Shown here piece after piece: positions 4,119 to 31,371 of a DNA stretch of 31,371 bases; the stretch's first letter is position 1, and each line of letters starts with the position of its first letter. Made by a program: the position numbers and the translations under genes. The stretch is from a virus. Location: positions 1 through 31,371 of IMG/VR virus record IMGVR_UViG_3300044922_000289, one strand, 5' to 3'. The notes under the pieces were generated by a model. It saw nothing but the letters and a program-made list of their open reading frames with translations, had not been told where the DNA came from and did no database searches.

Positions 4119-4372
4119 CGGGCCTCTCCCGCGATCTCGGCGACGGAGTAGAGCAGCGGCCCGCCATAGGACCCGATCGAGGTACGGACGCCGACGCGCA
4201 TCTCGCGCTCGCCCGCCTCCCTGCCGGGGCAGATGATCGCCTGCATCTCGATCGTGTCCTCTGTCGCGAGAGCGTGGGCGAGGTCGCGGATGAGGTCGCT
4301 CGCCGCCCTGCGGTCGAGGGTGTAGATGAACATCGCGCGGGAGACCTCGACGGTCGTGCGGTCGGCGCTCAT
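4115..4372 (-). CDS. Hypothetical early protein, 85 aa
   Basis: Begins with CCCGATG and an ATGA overlap with the upstream stop. Soluble, mixed alpha/beta sequence (SRAMFIYTLDRRAASDLIRD, then MQAIICPGR), no recognisable motif. Second gene of the operon whose first start is 4716 and which carries the shared promoter and leader module, so it is probably controlled with the 10810 and 29756 operons. Confidence 0.65.
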   Translation of the reverse strand: MSADRTTVEVSRAMFIYTLDRRAASDLIRDLAHALATEDTIEMQAIICPGREAGEREMRVGVRTSIGSYGGPLLYSVAEIAGEAR

Positions 4373-4716
4373 CGGGCGACCTCCGCCCGGATCGTGTCGA
4401 GCGCGTCGGCTACGGACTGCCCCGTGACCTTCCACTCCGGGATGCCGCCGTCGAGGTCGAGGGCGCTCATCGTGCGCCAGTCCGTCTCCTCGAGCGTGAA
4501 GACGTAGTAGCGGGAGACGAACTGACCAAGGTGTCCGCTGAACTCGTCGGGGCACTTCCCGGCATAGGTCGCGTCATAGAACTCGACGACGGGCCGGGGG
4601 TCGTCGTGCGTCAGGCATCCGTTGCGCCCGTACTGCTCGCCCTGCTCGACGAGTCGGACGTTGTACGGGCGACCTGTCGGGCCGGTCGCCGTGTCGATTG
4701 CGGTCGGTGTGTTCAT
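4369..4716 (-). CDS. Hypothetical first gene of a controlled operon, 115 aa
   Basis: ATG directly preceded by the 13-base leader shared with the starts at 10810 and 29756. The protein has a short disordered N-terminus, then RPYNVRLVEQGEQYGRNGCL, VVEFYDATY and RYYVFTLEETDW, suggesting a small alpha/beta domain; a C-terminal helix ends at AEVAR. Proteins with this kind of N-terminus occur in actinophage accessory operons without assigned function. No Cys pair and no membrane segment. Confidence 0.7.
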   Translation of the reverse strand: MNTPTAIDTATGPTGRPYNVRLVEQGEQYGRNGCLTHDDPRPVVEFYDATYAGKCPDEFSGHLGQFVSRYYVFTLEETDWRTMSALDLDGGIPEWKVTGQSVADALDTIRAEVAR

Positions 4717-4783
4717 CGGGGTTGCTCCTATCGCTTCTCGGGGTTGCTTACGGGGACAACGCTAGTCGCGGGGTCCGACAGTC
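4717..4783 (-). promoter_or_regulatory. Promoter, inverted repeat and 13-bp leader for the 4716 operon
   Basis: The leader cggggttgctcct (plus strand, 4717-4729) abuts the ATG and contains AGGAG on the minus strand. An inverted repeat GTTG-N10-CAAC spans 4743-4760. Its distal arm overlaps a -10-like TAGCGT on the minus strand (4756-4764 region), with a GGACC-containing stretch further upstream that is also seen in the other copies. The repeat overlapping the -10 is in operator position. Confidence 0.6.
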
Positions 4784-7626: not shown

Positions 7627-7901
7627 GCCGACGCCTCTCCCTCGACTAGCCAGGACTCGAGGGCCATGATCGCGACGCGCCGGTTGTCGTCGTCGAGCGT
7701 CGTCAGGTCGGCGACGCCTCGGTGTCCGCTGCCGTTGTACATCTCGCGGACGAGGTCGACGAGGACGCGCTCCCCGGAGGACCAGCCGAAGTCCTCGAGC
7801 CGCTCGAGGTCGACGGCGCTCCGGTCGAGGTCGATGCACGCCTGCGCGTGCGGGGATCGGGAGAGGGCGGAGAGTTTGACTAGGACTCCGATCCCTCTCA
7901 T
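7623..7901 (-). CDS. Hypothetical early protein, 92 aa
   Basis: Start chosen at the ATG in the ATGA overlap with the upstream Xis-like gene, which also has the CCCGATG context; an ATG 15 bases earlier is possible. The sequence MRGIGVLVKLSALSRSPHAQ is followed by an acidic helical C-terminal half. No recognisable motif. Third gene of the early operon from the switch region. Confidence 0.6.
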   Translation of the reverse strand: MRGIGVLVKLSALSRSPHAQACIDLDRSAVDLERLEDFGWSSGERVLVDLVREMYNGSGHRGVADLTTLDDDNRRVAIMALESWLVEGEASA

Positions 7902-8086
7902 CGGGTGAGTTGCCATGCGCTGCTGCCTTCCGTGCGTGCCGCGATCCACGCGGCGAGTTGTTGACGGGGGACGCGGATCGTCCGTCCGATCCGCATGTGC
8001 GGGAGGTCGCCTGCCCGGATGAGGTCATAGACCGTGTTCCGGCCTACGCCGAGGTGGTCGGCGGTCTCCCTGACGGAGAGCGTCAT
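7898..8086 (-). CDS. xis: Excisionase / MerR-like HTH protein, 62 aa
   Basis: The ATG at 8086 has the CCCGATG context and starts 4 bases after the upstream stop; an ATG at 8107 would overlap that gene. The sequence LSVRETADHLGVGRNTVYDL followed by GDLPHMRIGRTIRVPRQQLAAW is the standard HTH_17 excisionase-type winged helix with its wing. Such proteins bend attP DNA to steer the integrase to excision, or act as early regulators. It lies close to the integrase and switch, which fits Xis, but position alone does not exclude a regulator. Confidence 0.75.
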   Translation of the reverse strand: MTLSVRETADHLGVGRNTVYDLIRAGDLPHMRIGRTIRVPRQQLAAWIAARTEGSSAWQLTR

Positions 8087-8090
8087 CGGG

Positions 8091-8303
8091 TCAGGCGCTC
8101 TCGACATGGGCTATGTCCGCGACGGTGCAGCCGAGAGCCTTCGCGAGTCGGGCGACCTTGTCGGGTCGCGCCGCCATCGCTCCGGTCTCGTAGCGGACCA
8201 TCGTGATCGGGTGCACGCCGACCTTGGCGGCGAGTTGCACTTGGGTGAGACCGGCGAGGAGTCTCCGGGAGCGGAGGCTGTCGCGGTCGAGGACGAGTTT
8301 CAT
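8091..8303 (-). CDS. Cro-like XRE-family repressor, 70 aa
   Basis: 70 residues, essentially one lambda-repressor-like HTH: LRSRRLLAGLTQVQLAAKVG then VHPITMVRYETGAMAARPDK and KALGCTVADIA. It is the first gene of the leftward early operon and is divergent from the plus-strand repressor at 8501, the geometry of cro/cI pairs. Small size without a second domain fits Cro. The start has CCCGATG and a variant of the shared leader. It probably binds operators in 8304-8500. Confidence 0.82.
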   Translation of the reverse strand: MKLVLDRDSLRSRRLLAGLTQVQLAAKVGVHPITMVRYETGAMAARPDKVARLAKALGCTVADIAHVESA

Positions 8304-8500
8304 CGGGGGTGTCCTGCTCCTCTCGTAGTTCCCCGGTTGATACCAGGGACGCGGGGCGTATGTCATGCCCGCGCTAGGTCAACGGTAGCGGTGCATAGGT
8401 TCTAAGGTCTAGCGGGGGGGTATCGTCGGCGCGTCGCGGCTCCGGCGTACTCTGCTCGGACGGGACGCTCCCGCTACCGGGACGCTAGACTCTCGGGGTT
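8304..8500. promoter_or_regulatory. Divergent switch region with early and repressor promoters
   Basis: 197 bases without a gene. On the minus strand TTGACC (8377-8382) can serve as a -35 for the early operon; upstream of it CGCTACCGTTG matches the shared promoter modules. On the plus strand TTGATA (8337-8342) with TATGTC (8359-8364), spacing 16, is a second candidate overlapping the first. A -10-like TAGACT at 8486-8491 lies 9 bases before the repressor ATG, implying a leaderless or nearly leaderless transcript. The element agggacgcgg at about 8345 resembles the attP arm repeats. Confidence 0.6.
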
Positions 8501-8800
8501 ATGACCGACGGGCAGATCATCGACAGGGAGAAGTTCGGCAGGCTCGCTCGAGCCGCTCGAGTCATCGCGGGTTTCGATCGCGTCGAGGACGCGGCAGCCG
8601 CGATCCGGGAGACGGCAGGGATCGAGGTCTCCGCGAGGACGATCTATGCGCTCGAGCGCGGGGAGCAGGACCCGACGATGCCCCTGTTCCTCGCGATCAA
8701 CCTGACCTACCGCCCGCCCTCCGGCGTCTGGTACTGGGACTCCGCGCTCCGCGAAGACGTCCGCGACGGACTAGGAGCGGCACGCCGTGGCGAGTCTTGA
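8501..8800 (+). CDS. Immunity repressor candidate, XRE-like, 99 aa
   Basis: One of only two plus-strand genes, divergent from the Cro-like gene. The HTH region FGRLARAARVIAGFDRVEDA, then SARTIYALERGEQDPTMPLF is XRE-like. There is no C-terminal oligomerisation or peptidase domain, so induction would not be by RecA-stimulated self-cleavage. No Shine-Dalgarno precedes the ATG; a -10 box is 9 bases away, so a leaderless mRNA is likely. The gene overlaps the integrase start by 14 bases, so repressor and integrase are co-expressed. Confidence 0.7.
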   Translation: MTDGQIIDREKFGRLARAARVIAGFDRVEDAAAAIRETAGIEVSARTIYALERGEQDPTMPLFLAINLTYRPPSGVWYWDSALREDVRDGLGAARRGES

Positions 8801-9908
8801 GGACCGTGGCACGGGCGACCGTCTCCGCTGGCGCGTCCGCTGGCGCGACCCGCAGGGGCATCACCGCTCGAGATCGTTCGCACGCAAGGCGGACGCTGAG
8901 CGATACCTCGCGAGCCTGACGACGTCGCTCTATGCGGGGACCTACGTCGACCCTGCCGCCGGTCGCGCGACGATCGCCGACGTCGCCGAGCCCTACCTCG
9001 AGCGGATCTCGAAGACGCGGAAGCGGACGACGTCCGCGTCATATGCCGGGCTCTGGCGGACCCTCCTCGAGCCCAGATGGTCGCGCGTGCCCGTCGCGGC
9101 GATCACGCACACGGACGTCGCCGTATGGGTCGCCGACCTCTCCGCCCGGTACTCGCCGAGCCGGACCCGGCAGGCGCACGGGCTTCTCTCCTCGATCCTC
9201 GACGACGCCGTCGCCGACCGGCGGATCCCGGCTAACCCTGCGCGGGGCGTCGAGTTGCCTCGGATGCCCCGCCGCCGCGCGTACCCGGTCCTCGGGCACG
9301 GCGAGGTCTCCGCGCTCGCCGACGCCGCCGGGGAGATCGGCGGACCGCTCGACCGGGCTCTTGTCCTCGTCCTCGCCTACACGGGACTCCGGTGGGGCGA
9401 GGCAGCGGGGCTCCGGTGGGTCGACGTCGACCTCCTCCGGCGCCGGATCCGGGTCGAGGAGACGATCGTCGAGGTCGACGGGAGGCAGTACCCGGACACG
9501 CCGAAGTCCCACCAAGCCCGCGCCGTCCCTCTCGCGGCCCCTCCCGCCCTAGCCCTCGAGACCCTGCCCCGGACTACCCCCCGCGTCTTCACAGGCGCTA
9601 CGGGCCTCCCTCTGCGCTCCTCGGGGTGGTCCCGCCGGATCCTCGCCCCCGCCTGCGAGCGGGCCGGGCTGCCCCGGACGACCCCGCACGGGCTCCGGCA
9701 TACGGCAGCGACCCTCGCCGTCGAGTCCGGCGCCCCGGTCAAGGCGGTCCAGACGATGCTCGGGCACGCCCTCGGCTCCTACACGATGACCCTCGACGTC
9801 TACGCCGACGCCCGCGAGGAGTCGCTCGACGAGGTCGCGGCACGCATGACAGAGGCGGCGGAGCGAGCCCCTAGGTGGGAGCCGCCCCGCCGCCTCGACG
9901 CCGTCTAG
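8787..9908 (+). CDS. int: Tyrosine integrase
   Basis: 373 residues from a GTG with AGGAG 9 bases upstream. Arm-binding and core-binding domains lie in residues 1-160 (RWRVRWRDPQG, an SAM-like helical block around 62-155). The catalytic domain has R202 (AYTGLRWGE), H301 and R304 (HGLRH), H327 (LGHALGSYT) and nucleophile Y339 (LDVYADA). It integrates and, with Xis, excises the phage at attP, which lies about 1.1 kb downstream. The stop overlaps the stop of the convergent gene through a shared CTAG. A complete, apparently functional enzyme. Confidence 0.96.
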   Translation: MASLEDRGTGDRLRWRVRWRDPQGHHRSRSFARKADAERYLASLTTSLYAGTYVDPAAGRATIADVAEPYLERISKTRKRTTSASYAGLWRTLLEPRWSRVPVAAITHTDVAVWVADLSARYSPSRTRQAHGLLSSILDDAVADRRIPANPARGVELPRMPRRRAYPVLGHGEVSALADAAGEIGGPLDRALVLVLAYTGLRWGEAAGLRWVDVDLLRRRIRVEETIVEVDGRQYPDTPKSHQARAVPLAAPPALALETLPRTTPRVFTGATGLPLRSSGWSRRILAPACERAGLPRTTPHGLRHTAATLAVESGAPVKAVQTMLGHALGSYTMTLDVYADAREESLDEVAARMTEAAERAPRWEPPRRLDAV

Positions 9909-10129
9909 CGTTCCCAGCGGTCCTTCCGGTTCCAGAGGACCGTGATCACGACGGGCTCCTCCGGCGCGGTCACGACCGCGATCTCGCCGCGCTGCCAGAC
10001 GCGCCCGTCCCGGTTGGTCTGCTCATAGGAGACCTCGGGGCGGAGCAGGACGAGGAGGACGTCCCGCGTCGTCAAACCCATCTGGGCGAGCCGGTGCCGC
10101 GCGTGCGCGGTGAACCGCCAGGAGGTCAC
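9905..10129 (-). CDS. DUF4258-like small protein, 74 aa
   Basis: GTG start in a GTGA overlap. The motif FTAHARHRLAQMGLTTRDVL then PEVSYEQ and VVITVLWNRKDRWER matches the HAR-x-R-x4-G-I/L-T-x2-DV pattern of DUF4258/BrnT-like small proteins, some of which are toxins in toxin-antitoxin pairs. Here it is the last gene of a four-gene operon between attP and integrase, converging on the integrase. No partner antitoxin is recognised, so a toxin role is only a possibility. Confidence 0.65.
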   Translation of the reverse strand: MTSWRFTAHARHRLAQMGLTTRDVLLVLLRPEVSYEQTNRDGRVWQRGEIAVVTAPEEPVVITVLWNRKDRWER

Positions 10130-10452: not shown

Positions 10453-10625
10453 CGTGCCGCCGCCTCTGCCTCGTCGCGGGTCGCGTAGCGCCCAACGTGC
10501 CGGTCGCGGTCGTCGAAGACGTCCCACTCGCCGGTCGTCTTGACGAGGCGGACGATCGCCCAGCCGCGCCAGGTGATGCCGAGGTTGCCGGTGCTAGTCC
10601 AGTTGACGTGTGCCTTGGTCTTCAT
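10449..10625 (-). CDS. Small hypothetical protein, 58 aa
   Basis: Begins with CCCGATG and an ATGA overlap. The short sequence KAHVNWTSTGNLGITWRGWA then TGEWDVFDDRDRHVGRYATR suggests a small beta sheet followed by a helix ending EAEAAAR. It may be a DNA- or protein-binding partner of the neighbouring 62-aa protein. Second gene of the operon controlled by the module at 10811-10883. Confidence 0.6.
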   Translation of the reverse strand: MKTKAHVNWTSTGNLGITWRGWAIVRLVKTTGEWDVFDDRDRHVGRYATRDEAEAAAR

Positions 10626-10810
10626 CGGGCGACCTCCTCGGCGTCGCGCTTCGCCTCGAGGTAGGTCGCCTCTACGTCGAGCCCGGCCAACTTGCACGCG
10701 CGGTGGAAGCGGGCCCAAGTCTCGGAGGGGATCCACTCGCCGCGAGCGACGCACTCGGCGGCGCGGGCGCGGGCGATCTCGTCGATCGGGCGGAGGGTGA
10801 TCTTCTTCAT
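10622..10810 (-). CDS. First gene of the attP-proximal operon, 62 aa
   Basis: ATG directly after the shared 13-base leader. A helical charged peptide: MKKITLRPIDEIARARAAEC, WIPSETWARFHRACKL, YLEAKRDAEEVAR. One Cys at each of two sites, no zinc pair. No known family. Leader, inverted repeat and promoter are nearly the same as those in front of 29756 and, in the leader, identical to 4716, so it should be expressed under the same control, possibly in the lysogen. Confidence 0.65.
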   Translation of the reverse strand: MKKITLRPIDEIARARAAECVARGEWIPSETWARFHRACKLAGLDVEATYLEAKRDAEEVAR

Positions 10811-10883
10811 CGGGGTTGCTCCTCTCGGGTCGGCGGGGTTGCCGGTAGGTGCAACGGTAGCGGACGCCTAGCGTCTGGTCCAG
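10811..10883 (-). promoter_or_regulatory. Promoter, inverted repeat and 13-bp leader for the 10810 operon
   Basis: Leader cggggttgctcct at 10811-10823 abuts the ATG. The inverted repeat gttgc-N8-gcaac spans 10838-10855. On the minus strand -10 TACCGT overlaps the distal arm (10853-10858) and CTGGAC lies 18 bases further up as -35. The block 10852-10883 aligns with 29803-29835, sharing GACGCTAGGC and CGCTAC. Confidence 0.65.
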
Positions 10884-10890
10884 TACCCCC

Positions 10891-10946
10891 CCGGGGACGC
10901 GCCGGGGACGCGAGAGCCGGGGACTAGCAGGGACGGGCAGGGACGC
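10891..10946 (+). repeat. Left attP arm repeats (integrase arm-type site candidates)
   Basis: The 11-mer ccggggacgcg occurs twice in tandem (10891-10901, 10902-10912), followed by ccggggacta (10917-10926), cagggacgg (10928-10936) and cagggacgc (10938-10946). The same tandem pair recurs at 11120-11141 on the other side of the core, as expected of arm-type binding sites. Confidence 0.65.
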
Positions 10947-11005
10947 CCCGAGCCGTCTACCAGGGAGAACGCCCTCGAGCCCGAGGTCCTCGAGGCGCCG
11001 GGGCG

Positions 11006-11051
11006 GGTTCCTAAACCGTGCGCGGAGGTTCAATTCCTCCCGGGGGCACCA
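11006..11051 (+). other. attP: attP core: 3' half of a tRNA-Arg(CCU) gene
   Basis: Reads as the 3' part of a tRNA: anticodon-loop segment ttcctaa (anticodon CCT), a variable loop, T arm ggagg-ttcaatt-cctcc, acceptor strand cgggggc, discriminator a and the first bases of CCA. The 5' half of a tRNA (D arm, acceptor start) is absent upstream, so this is not a working tRNA gene but the identity segment that restores the host tRNA-Arg gene after integration. It is flanked by arm repeats and lies next to int. Confidence 0.85.
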
Positions 11052-11068
11052 CCCAAACACCCTGCTCC

Positions 11069-11085
11069 CGGCCCTAGGAGGGCCG
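11069..11085. terminator. Short hairpin beside attP
   Basis: Perfect 7-bp stem cggccct / agggccg with a 3-base loop, 18 bases after the tRNA-like core. No T-run. It may mark the P' arm or act as a weak terminator. Confidence 0.35.
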
Positions 11086-11119
11086 TAGCGGGCCGATCCC
11101 CGGCGGGGGGTATCCGAGC

Positions 11120-11141
11120 CCGGGGACGCGCCGGGGACGCG
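11120..11141 (+). repeat. Right attP arm repeats
   Basis: Two tandem exact copies of ccggggacgcg (11120-11130, 11131-11141), identical to the pair at 10891-10912. Direct orientation on both sides of the core fits integrase arm-type sites. Confidence 0.65.
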
Positions 11142-11199
11142 GGAGAATAGACGAGAGGGCCGGGGCGCCCCTACAACGTCCCGACCCTCCCGAGCCCTG

Positions 11200-29140: not shown

Positions 29141-29502
29141 GCGCTCGCCTCCTCGAGATCGGCCTGCAGTCGCAGCCGGGCTTCCCGCAGGTCATCGAGC
29201 GCGTCGCGGTACTCGGACCGGAGCGCGAGGAAGACGACGCGGCAGATGCGGTCTTGGATCGTCTCGCCCTCGTCCCAGCCGAGTTCGTCGGCCTCCTCCT
29301 CGAAGTCTCGGACGTCGGAGGAGTCGAGCCAGAGGGAGTTCGCTCGCCAGTAGGTCCAAGCGTTCGCGTCGCCGTCGGCACGCTCCCAGGCGATCTCGTC
29401 GAGGTCGCCGTCAAGGTCGATGTTCCCGTGGATAACGTCGAACTCGAGCGCCTCGCGGATCTCCTCGCGGACGGAGGGCCAGGTCAGGGTCTCGTCGCTC
29501 AT
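29137..29502 (-). CDS. Acidic hypothetical accessory protein, 121 aa
   Basis: ATG with CCCGATG context and an ATGA overlap; ends with an overlap at the lysozyme-like gene. Very acidic throughout (EFDVIHGNIDLDGDLDEIAW, DVRDFEEEADELGWDEGETI) with a helical C-terminal part (RSEYRDALDDLREARLRLQA). No motif recognised. The acidic N-terminal half may mimic DNA or bind a basic partner. Confidence 0.65.
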   Translation of the reverse strand: MSDETLTWPSVREEIREALEFDVIHGNIDLDGDLDEIAWERADGDANAWTYWRANSLWLDSSDVRDFEEEADELGWDEGETIQDRICRVVFLALRSEYRDALDDLREARLRLQADLEEASA

Positions 29503-29756
29503 CGGGCCACCGCCTCGACGATCTCGAAGGCCAGCGCCTCGCGGAGCGCGTCGAGCCGCTGCCGCATCTCGGGGCTTGCCCACCGGGGGGCGGAGACGAA
29601 GTTCGCGACGGTCTTCTCCGCGAGGTCGCGACGTCCAGCGAACTTGACCTGGCGGCGACCCTCGGGCCAGGTGATGATGACTGCGTGCGTGTACGTGCGC
29701 TCCGTCTTGCGGGTGTAGGTCTGACCGTCTGCGGCGGTTGCGGTGTAGGTCGTCAT
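29499..29756 (-). CDS. First gene of the 29756 operon, 85 aa
   Basis: ATG directly after the shared leader. Sequence MTTYTATAADGQTYTRKTER then THAVIITWPEGRRQVKFAGR is a small beta sheet, followed by a helical C-terminal part (SPEMRQRLDALREALAFEIV). The N-terminal strands are similar to small actinophage proteins often carried in accessory loci, but no function is known. Confidence 0.65.
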   Translation of the reverse strand: MTTYTATAADGQTYTRKTERTYTHAVIITWPEGRRQVKFAGRRDLAEKTVANFVSAPRWASPEMRQRLDALREALAFEIVEAVAR

Positions 29757-29835
29757 CGGGGTTGCTCCTGTCGGTTCCGGCGGGCGGGGTTGCCCGATAG
29801 GACAACCGTAGCGTATGCCTAGCGTCCCGGTCCAA
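29757..29835 (-). promoter_or_regulatory. Promoter, inverted repeat and 13-bp leader for the 29756 operon
   Basis: Leader cggggttgctcct at 29757-29769 abuts the ATG. Inverted repeat ggttg-N10-caacc spans 29788-29807. On the minus strand the -10 TACGGT overlaps the distal arm and TTGGAC (29830-29835) is a possible -35, spacing 19. It shares GACGCTAGGC and CGCTAC with the 10852-10883 element. Confidence 0.68.
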
Positions 29836-29897: not shown

Positions 29898-31145
29898 CTA
29901 GAGGATGATGACCCGGGGATCCGCTCCGGCCCGCTCCCACTCGGCGAGTTGGCTCATCATCGCGAGCGCGATCGCCGCGTCGATCGACCTCGAGCGGACC
30001 CGCTTATCGAGCCGCCACCCCTGCGGCACTTCCCGGACCCCGGCGGAGAGGACCTGCTCCGAGACCTCGTCGTCGCCTTCGTGTCGGAGCCTGCCCTCCA
30101 TGATCAGGTCGTAGAGCAGTTGCGAGGCGGGCACCATGCGAACGTGCGACTGAGGGAACATCTCGACAGGGAGACCTTCGCCGTCGAGCCGCTGCGCGAC
30201 GGGCACCATCTGGAACGGGTCGAACGCGATGCGGCGGACGTCATACGTCGACGCGAGATCGCGGAGCAGGGACTCCACCATCTCATAGTCAAGGAAGCCG
30301 ATGGACTCGTCCGCTCGCATGATCCAGACGCGCGTGTTCAGTTTCCCGTCGTCGGCCCATTGACCCATCGCGATCGCCGTCGAGTCGCGCCTCGAGCCCG
30401 CGTCGACCGCGATGTAGACCGGGAGCGCCGGATCGAACTCGACCGGACCCTCGCACTCCTCCCAAGACTCGCGAGAGACCCAGAGCGTCCCGCCTGCCTC
30501 ATACCATTCGTTCCCGTGGAGGCGCCGGAAGACGGGCTCCGGGAGGGAGTCCCGCTGATCGGCGAGGAACTCCTCCGTGACCCAGGATGCGGGGTTGGCT
30601 TCCTTGAAGGCGTCGAGGTCGGAGAGCGGCGTCCCCGGTGGGACTGAGCGCCAGTAGCAGAACAGGCGAGGATCCTTGCCTGAAACACCGCGCTCATAAA
30701 GTGACCACAGCGGTCCTCGCTTCTCCGGTCCCGCCGTCGTGATCGTCAGGATCAGCGGCTCGAGGCGGGCTGCCGTGCCCGTCCGCATCGCCTCATACTG
30801 CTCGGCGTCCCGGTGAACGTGGTACTCGTCGATGATCGCCGCGTGCGGGTTCAGACCGTGCTGCAGATCCGCGTCGGCGGAGAGCGCCCGGTAGATCCCG
30901 GACGTCTCGGGGACCTCCATCACGGAGCGGTAGACCCGGACCGCGCTCCGGAACGGGGAACCCTTAGCCATATCCGCTGCCGTCCGGTAGACCAGGCTCG
31001 CTTGCTTCCGGTCGCCCGCTAGGGAGTAGACCTCCGCCCCGAACTCCCCATCAGCGAGGAGGAGATAGAGAGCGGCAGCGGCGGCGAGTTCTGACTTCCC
31101 ATTCTTGCTAATCGAGGGAGGCCGATGAGAGCCTCCCTGTACCAC
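29898..31145 (-). CDS. terL: Terminase large subunit, main open frame (frameshifted gene)
   Basis: 415 codons. Motifs of the ATPase and nuclease: KNGKSE Walker A (14-19), IIDEYHVH Walker B (104-111), the first nuclease acid in YIAVDAGSRRDS (D248), IAFDP (D309) and RSRSIDAAIAL near the end. The ATPase pumps DNA into the prohead and the nuclease cuts it. The first residues (VQGGSHRPPSIS) are not a natural N-terminus: the true N-terminus continues in the other frame (31019-31330), and the GTG at 31145 has no ribosome binding site. See the finding on the 5-base offset. Confidence 0.9.
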   Translation of the reverse strand: MVQGGSHRPPSISKNGKSELAAAAALYLLLADGEFGAEVYSLAGDRKQASLVYRTAADMAKGSPFRSAVRVYRSVMEVPETSGIYRALSADADLQHGLNPHAAIIDEYHVHRDAEQYEAMRTGTAARLEPLILTITTAGPEKRGPLWSLYERGVSGKDPRLFCYWRSVPPGTPLSDLDAFKEANPASWVTEEFLADQRDSLPEPVFRRLHGNEWYEAGGTLWVSRESWEECEGPVEFDPALPVYIAVDAGSRRDSTAIAMGQWADDGKLNTRVWIMRADESIGFLDYEMVESLLRDLASTYDVRRIAFDPFQMVPVAQRLDGEGLPVEMFPQSHVRMVPASQLLYDLIMEGRLRHEGDDEVSEQVLSAGVREVPQGWRLDKRVRSRSIDAAIALAMMSQLAEWERAGADPRVIIL

Positions 31146-31330: not shown

Positions 31331-31371
31331 GCCTGCACCTGCACGACGACGTCGGGCCGGTCGAGATCCTT
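31327..31371 (-). CDS. C-terminus of the gene upstream of the large terminase (probable small terminase)
   Basis: Only the last 14 residues (KDLDRPDVVVQVQA) and the stop are visible; the stop overlaps the terminase ATG (ATGA). Gene order makes the small terminase subunit the likely identity, but the visible part has no diagnostic motif. Confidence 0.45.
   Translation of the reverse strand, partial: KDLDRPDVVVQVQA

Follow-up and report, generated by a model that had tools for sequence, protein, structure and literature searches.

A putative immunity-type operator and a start-associated leader recur ahead of exchangeable small genes in a temperate phage genome

Why do two distant genes of one phage genome start behind nearly the same stretch of DNA (10811-10883 and 29757-29835), with more of it conserved than a promoter needs? 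An earlier note had paired these stretches as a shared block and proposed an additional bound protein. The window analysed here is an IMG/VR record of 31,371 bases and is the genome of a temperate tailed phage, probably with an actinobacterial host; the terminases nearest to its own are those of Streptomyces phages (34% identity), and a megablast search of the phage collection returned no record matching the window or the module. The related contig L089 connects the two ends of the window through an extra 2.5 kb, so the window is a genome that has been opened and is slightly incomplete. The piece absent between positions 31371 and 1 (L089:2907-5425, about 2.5 kb) appears by eye to code for a ParB-like protein and a small terminase subunit, and no further module was found in it. 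It should also be noted that the large-terminase frame (31085-31125, minus strand) is interrupted at its Walker A motif, where five bases appear to be inserted (GLPR / TTAGC / KNGKSE) in the window, L004, L089, L011, L068, L111, L217 and L218, and that L079 has an uninterrupted GLPRKNGKSE. Since many contigs have the insertion, it is not a single assembly error; the break is a programmed frameshift, a split gene or a scar.

On the minus strand, 10808-10875 (module A) and 29754-29832 (module B) align at 81% identity (E = 1.0e-13), which bears out the shared block; treated as a 51-nt family (D19), they are 76% identical without gaps. Each module directly precedes an ATG (10810 for A, 29756 for B). 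The minus-strand sequence GACGCTAGGC is found exactly at 10866-10875 and 29817-29826, with no other exact occurrence in the window. A third, partial copy (module C, 4717-4764) precedes the ATG at 4716; this copy was absent from the earlier note, as was the recurrence of the operator in the immunity region described below. Relatives were represented by about ten real contigs of one phage group, about 85-100% identical, and because they are few and from a single group, the alleles at one site are not independent. Across these relatives the block is conserved, with both CGCTA boxes of site A invariant in 4/4 alleles. Outside them, the remaining viral matches to the module pattern proved to be unrelated sequence, and the sole genome match (L231), lying inside an apparent cyanobacterial coding repeat, was rejected. 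The module consists of two separable parts, an operator and a leader.

The repetition of the leader, which runs from GCAACCCCG to GGAGCAACCCCG and the ATG, is directly visible in the sequence. GCAACCCCG sits shortly after a -10 of the form TAnnnT in each module, and its six occurrences in the window all fall within the three modules, versus 0.26 expected from shuffles. GGAGCAACCCCG immediately precedes the ATG in all three modules, and in the relatives. On the minus strand, module A has a putative -10 TACCGT at 10854-10859, its first GCAACCCCG at 10834-10842, as the predicted transcript start, and GGAGCAACCCCG at 10811-10822. The same elements are found in module B (putative -10 TACGGT, 29805-29810; 29785-29793; 29757-29768) and in module C (putative -10 TAGCGT, 4759-4764; 4739-4747; 4717-4728). 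TAnnnT is kept in every module allele. No canonical -35 was found, and sites A and B have a weak -35 at 18-20 bp from the -10, that of module A being CTGGAC (10878-10883, minus strand), which is read from the sequence and missed by the promoter scan. The E. coli-style promoter scan found nothing, and the scan for a coded terminator or terminator-like site was likewise negative. We infer that the modules are active as promoters. A leader hairpin hiding the ribosome-binding site was rejected, as the z values (-1.5 to +0.4) indicate no unusual stability and there is no common fold; no Rfam family was found for the leader RNA. The start context of the HTH_3 gene of the immunity region, GAGAGGAGCAGGACACCCCCGATG (8304-8330, minus strand), is like the module leader plus a short insertion.

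The other part of the module, the operator, is a direct repeat, CGSTA-N6-CGSTA, and what the earlier note saw as a conserved spacer is its two CGCTA boxes exactly 11 bp apart. Such spacer-6 CGSTA pairs occur four times in 31 kb, versus 0.10 expected, and all four are at promoter positions; exact CGCTA pairs at 11 bp number three, versus 0.03 expected. Of the four spacer-6 pairs, one lies in module A (CGCTAGGCGTCCGCTA, 10858-10873, minus strand, two CGCTA boxes with an 11-bp period), one in module B (CGCTAGGCATACGCTA, 29809-29824, minus strand), and two in the immunity region between the divergent HTH genes 8303(-) and 8501(+). Of the latter, CGCTAGGTCAACGGTA (8372-8387, plus strand) overlaps the -10 (8382-8387) and +1 of the leftward promoter, and CGCTACCGGGACGCTA (8472-8487, plus strand) overlaps TAGACT (8486-8491), the -10 of the rightward gene, which appears to be leaderless. 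The sharing of the operator holds in both directions: a weight matrix trained on the modules of the window and its relatives ranks the immunity sites third and fourth among about 62,700 positions, and a matrix trained on the immunity sites gives the same ranks to modules B and A. Below these four strong sites, matrix scores fall from 19 to 12. Weaker matches on the plus strand lie over the -10/+1 of both modules, namely CGATAGGACAACCGTA in module B (29795-29810; rank 5 in the window) and CGGTA-N7-CGGTA in module A (10843-10859; 12-bp period, sharing the -10 box). No tandem operator was found in module C.

The relatives show how the two parts vary. In the four alleles of site A (window, L017, L062 and L086), the boxes are invariant at 10/10 positions, the intervening bases at 3/6 and the leader at 27/27. 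At site B, the upstream half is replaced in the relatives: in three of the four other distinct alleles (L011, L111 and L079) the operator is turned round but still sits over the -10, with the geometry of the leftward immunity promoter, and L217/L219 show weaker operator matches only. Hence the operator stands in one orientation at the 8501 promoter, at A and at B of the window, and in the other at the leftward immunity promoter and at B of L011, L111 and L079. Because the site covers the -10 in either orientation, a repressor-type operator, for which occlusion fits better than activation, is suggested. Furthermore, since module C has no tandem operator and site B of L217/L219 only weaker matches, operator and leader are not obligately coupled. 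The inverted repeat arm pointed out in the earlier note exists in the window but is not the conserved element; as an operator, GTTG-N10-CAAC was rejected, being broken without compensation in 3/11 alleles (A_L017, B_L011 and B_L217). The proposal of an additional bound protein fares better. Given that the excess conservation amounts to an operator-like site also present at the immunity switch, an additional DNA-binding protein is the best reading of the block.

Behind the modules, the exchange of genes is evident from the alignments. In most pairs of relatives, homology spans the module, ends no more than about 10 bp from the ATG and returns hundreds of bases downstream; the small genes downstream are mostly unrelated between relatives and are exchanged whole. 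In the window, the cargo genes (all minus strand) code for 62 aa at site A (10622-10810), 85 aa at site B (29499-29756) and 115 aa at site C (4369-4716). The site A gene has no PHROG, Pfam or PADLOC family and no relatives of it were found, and comparison of the cargo proteins with family collections gave no convincing family. For the site B protein, distant relatives turn up in two mycobacteriophages, Zenteno07 and Imvubu, as well as in further viral contigs. The site A gene is replaced in relatives, with four different small genes in four phages. The site B gene is replaced in L011, L111 and L217, so that the first genes differ among the window, L011, L111/L079 and L217/L219. The site C gene is kept in L086 and replaced in L017 and L062, each with a different first gene. 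As exceptions, the same cargo gene is found at site C in the window, L010, L069 and L086, and at site B in L111 and L079; a few pairs have similarity slightly past the ATG, and the window and L017 are similar throughout at site A. Whole genes are also inserted ahead of a common next gene: the first site A gene of L086 resembles the second of the window, and the first site B gene of L111 is the second gene in L011 and L217. At their ends, most cargo genes are linked to the gene that follows by a CGATGA stop/start overlap. We do not claim CCCGATGA as a dedicated cassette-recombination site; the same context is also present at immunity-gene starts. The last gene of the site A operon (9905-10129, minus strand) codes for a DUF4258 protein and is kept in all four site A relatives.

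Three proteins encoded around the immunity operators are candidate binders. The XRE-fold protein (8501-8800, plus strand), a candidate immunity repressor that among solved folds comes closest to XRE regulators (best E = 0.003), is encoded upstream of and overlapping the tyrosine integrase gene (8787-9908, plus strand) and has 51-92% identity in relatives. The HTH_3 protein (8091-8303, minus strand; 70 aa), a Cro or a repressor, has 97-99% identity in relatives; the third is an HTH_17 excisionase/transcriptional regulator (7898-8107, minus strand). The order of these regulators resembles the rep | cro - xis order of Adephagia (PMC11373665). Because the XRE protein is only 51% identical in L017 yet mostly keeps its predicted recognition helix, sequence alone cannot pick the binder. 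Nevertheless, the XRE or the HTH_3 protein would be favoured, since the sites occupy both switch promoters. If the HTH_17 protein bound the tandem boxes head to tail, the modules would follow an Xis/Cox-like regulator and not the repressor or Cro. This protein matches HTH_17 at E = 9e-18, has the PHROG annotation 'excisionase and transcriptional regulator' and is 94-97% conserved where operators occur; moreover, BldC-type HTH_17 proteins bind head to tail on direct repeats, and the operator boxes repeat directly at a distance of one helical turn. However, the repeats of BldC are AT-rich (AATT) and 9 bp long, the sites here overlap both immunity-switch promoters, which is the usual location of repressor/Cro operators, and the boxes form an inverted pair too, at 8372-8390. 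We consider this explanation unlikely.

It is more improbable still that the block arose by duplication of a promoter to which no special protein binds, its likeness reflecting recent copying and an extended -10 (CGCTAnnnT). One box of each pair does overlap the -10, the module copies are paralogous, and the flanks of the relatives are themselves about 85-100% identical. Yet the upstream box is not a -10, the exact 11 bp is kept with variable bases between, and the upstream box recurs in the immunity region and, oppositely oriented, in the site B relatives. The position of module A near the putative attachment site raises the further idea that its boxes are integrase arm-type sites. The attP candidate, resembling a tRNA 3' end (11020-11052, within 10890-11145), lies about 150 bp from these tandem repeats of 11-bp period. 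The same boxes occur, however, at 29.8 kb and in the immunity region, and attP has better candidates in the paired GGGGACGCG repeats that flank it, also with an 11-bp period (10893, 10904, 11122 and 11133). We rejected this role for the CGCTA boxes as very improbable; the GGGGACGCG repeats fit better and are likely the arm-type sites.

The block is, in our view, probably the operator plus core promoter of a regulon with three sites, through which an immunity HTH protein would repress swappable cargo. Each site would combine a vegetative promoter (-10 TAnnnT) with a start-associated leader, GCAACCCCG falling at the predicted transcript start and GGAGCAACCCCG before the ATG; the promoters at A and B in addition carry the CGSTA-N6-CGSTA operator of both divergent immunity promoters. 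An HTH protein of the switch (XRE, 8501-8800, or HTH_3, 8091-8303) would bind the A and B operators and keep the genes behind them repressed according to the lysis/lysogeny decision; repression is proposed because the operator always covers the -10. Binding, repression and the identity of the binder are what we infer here from sequence patterns. The downstream small genes, which relatives swap whole while the module stays, would then be accessory cargo. Against this reading stand module C, which has the leader but no tandem operator, the weaker operator matches of L217/L219 at site B, the failure to find a canonical -35 and the small set of relatives. We suggest more tentatively that two or three fixed docks, each an immunity operator promoter with a leader ending CCCGATG, receive unrelated small genes as whole frames via CCCGATGA stop/start overlaps; were this so, a captured gene would fall at once under lysis/lysogeny control. 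The docked genes are possibly anti-host or anti-defence factors.

Among known systems, lambdoid morons are small accessory genes with their own promoter and terminator between conserved genes. The window likewise has small, variable accessory genes between conserved ones, each behind a promoter-like module; here promoter and leader stay while genes change, and the scan found no terminator-like site. In phage L5, stoperators are many dispersed, asymmetric repressor sites acting outside promoters; their dispersal is noted in PMC4557955. The sites of the window are likewise dispersed and asymmetric, but only four are strong, and all of these are at promoters. In archaeal viruses, one conserved promoter sequence stands ahead of diverse small anti-defence genes (PMC11065993); the likeness lies in that arrangement, although those promoters have no immunity operator link, unlike the window.

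The nearest precedents appear to be the dispersed operators of phage BPs and the start-associated sequences (SAS) and extended elements (ESAS) of cluster K mycobacteriophages. In BPs (PMC4557955), the repressor gp33 binds at five regulatory regions and controls four promoters, a repressor site of the rep-cro region recurring at remote promoters much as the immunity site of the window recurs at A and B; rep is co-oriented with int and divergent from a cro-like gene, as is the candidate rep here. The BPs half-site is a 12-bp palindrome, CGACATATGTCG, whereas the site here is a 16-bp tandem CGSTA pair, and attP of BPs lies inside rep, whereas the attP-like sequence here (11020-11052) is outside 8501-8800; the available part of that source mentions no leader ahead of swappable cargo.

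In cluster K phages, a promoter element lies upstream of start-associated sequences, and control by the immunity repressor was considered unlikely there, the motif being missing from the immunity region (PMC3203893; PMC11373665). Like SAS, GGAGCAACCCCG is repeated, extends beyond the ribosome-binding site and stands at the starts of non-structural genes; like ESAS, a promoter-containing element lies upstream in a subset. The modules do not match the 13-bp SAS consensus GGGATAGGAGCCC (at most 2 mismatches near starts): within 3 mismatches it is found at one module start only (4722-4734), not at A or B, and its 2-mismatch matches lie elsewhere. The window has only the 18-bp GTTG-N10-CAAC dyad, not the 17-bp imperfect inverted repeats with variable spacer of ESAS. 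ESAS promoters are SigA-like, with -10 and -35 spaced 17-18 bp; here TAnnnT stands in all alleles, with a weak -35 at 18-20 bp (A and B), and the E. coli-style scan was negative. The immunity region of Adephagia lacks the extended element, whereas that of the window has the operator; elements of cluster K move along with their gene family, whereas here genes change under a fixed element. Since the SAS consensus and 17-bp repeats are lacking and the attP candidate is outside the repressor gene, the module would work like both precedents but is a member of neither. What is new here is that a start-associated leader is coupled to an immunity-type operator, and that genes are exchanged behind a fixed module. 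With its leader standing behind an operator that the immunity region shares, the module would offer a way to test what SAS/ESAS-type elements do in actinobacteriophages; it also provides a sequence handle for locating exchangeable accessory genes.
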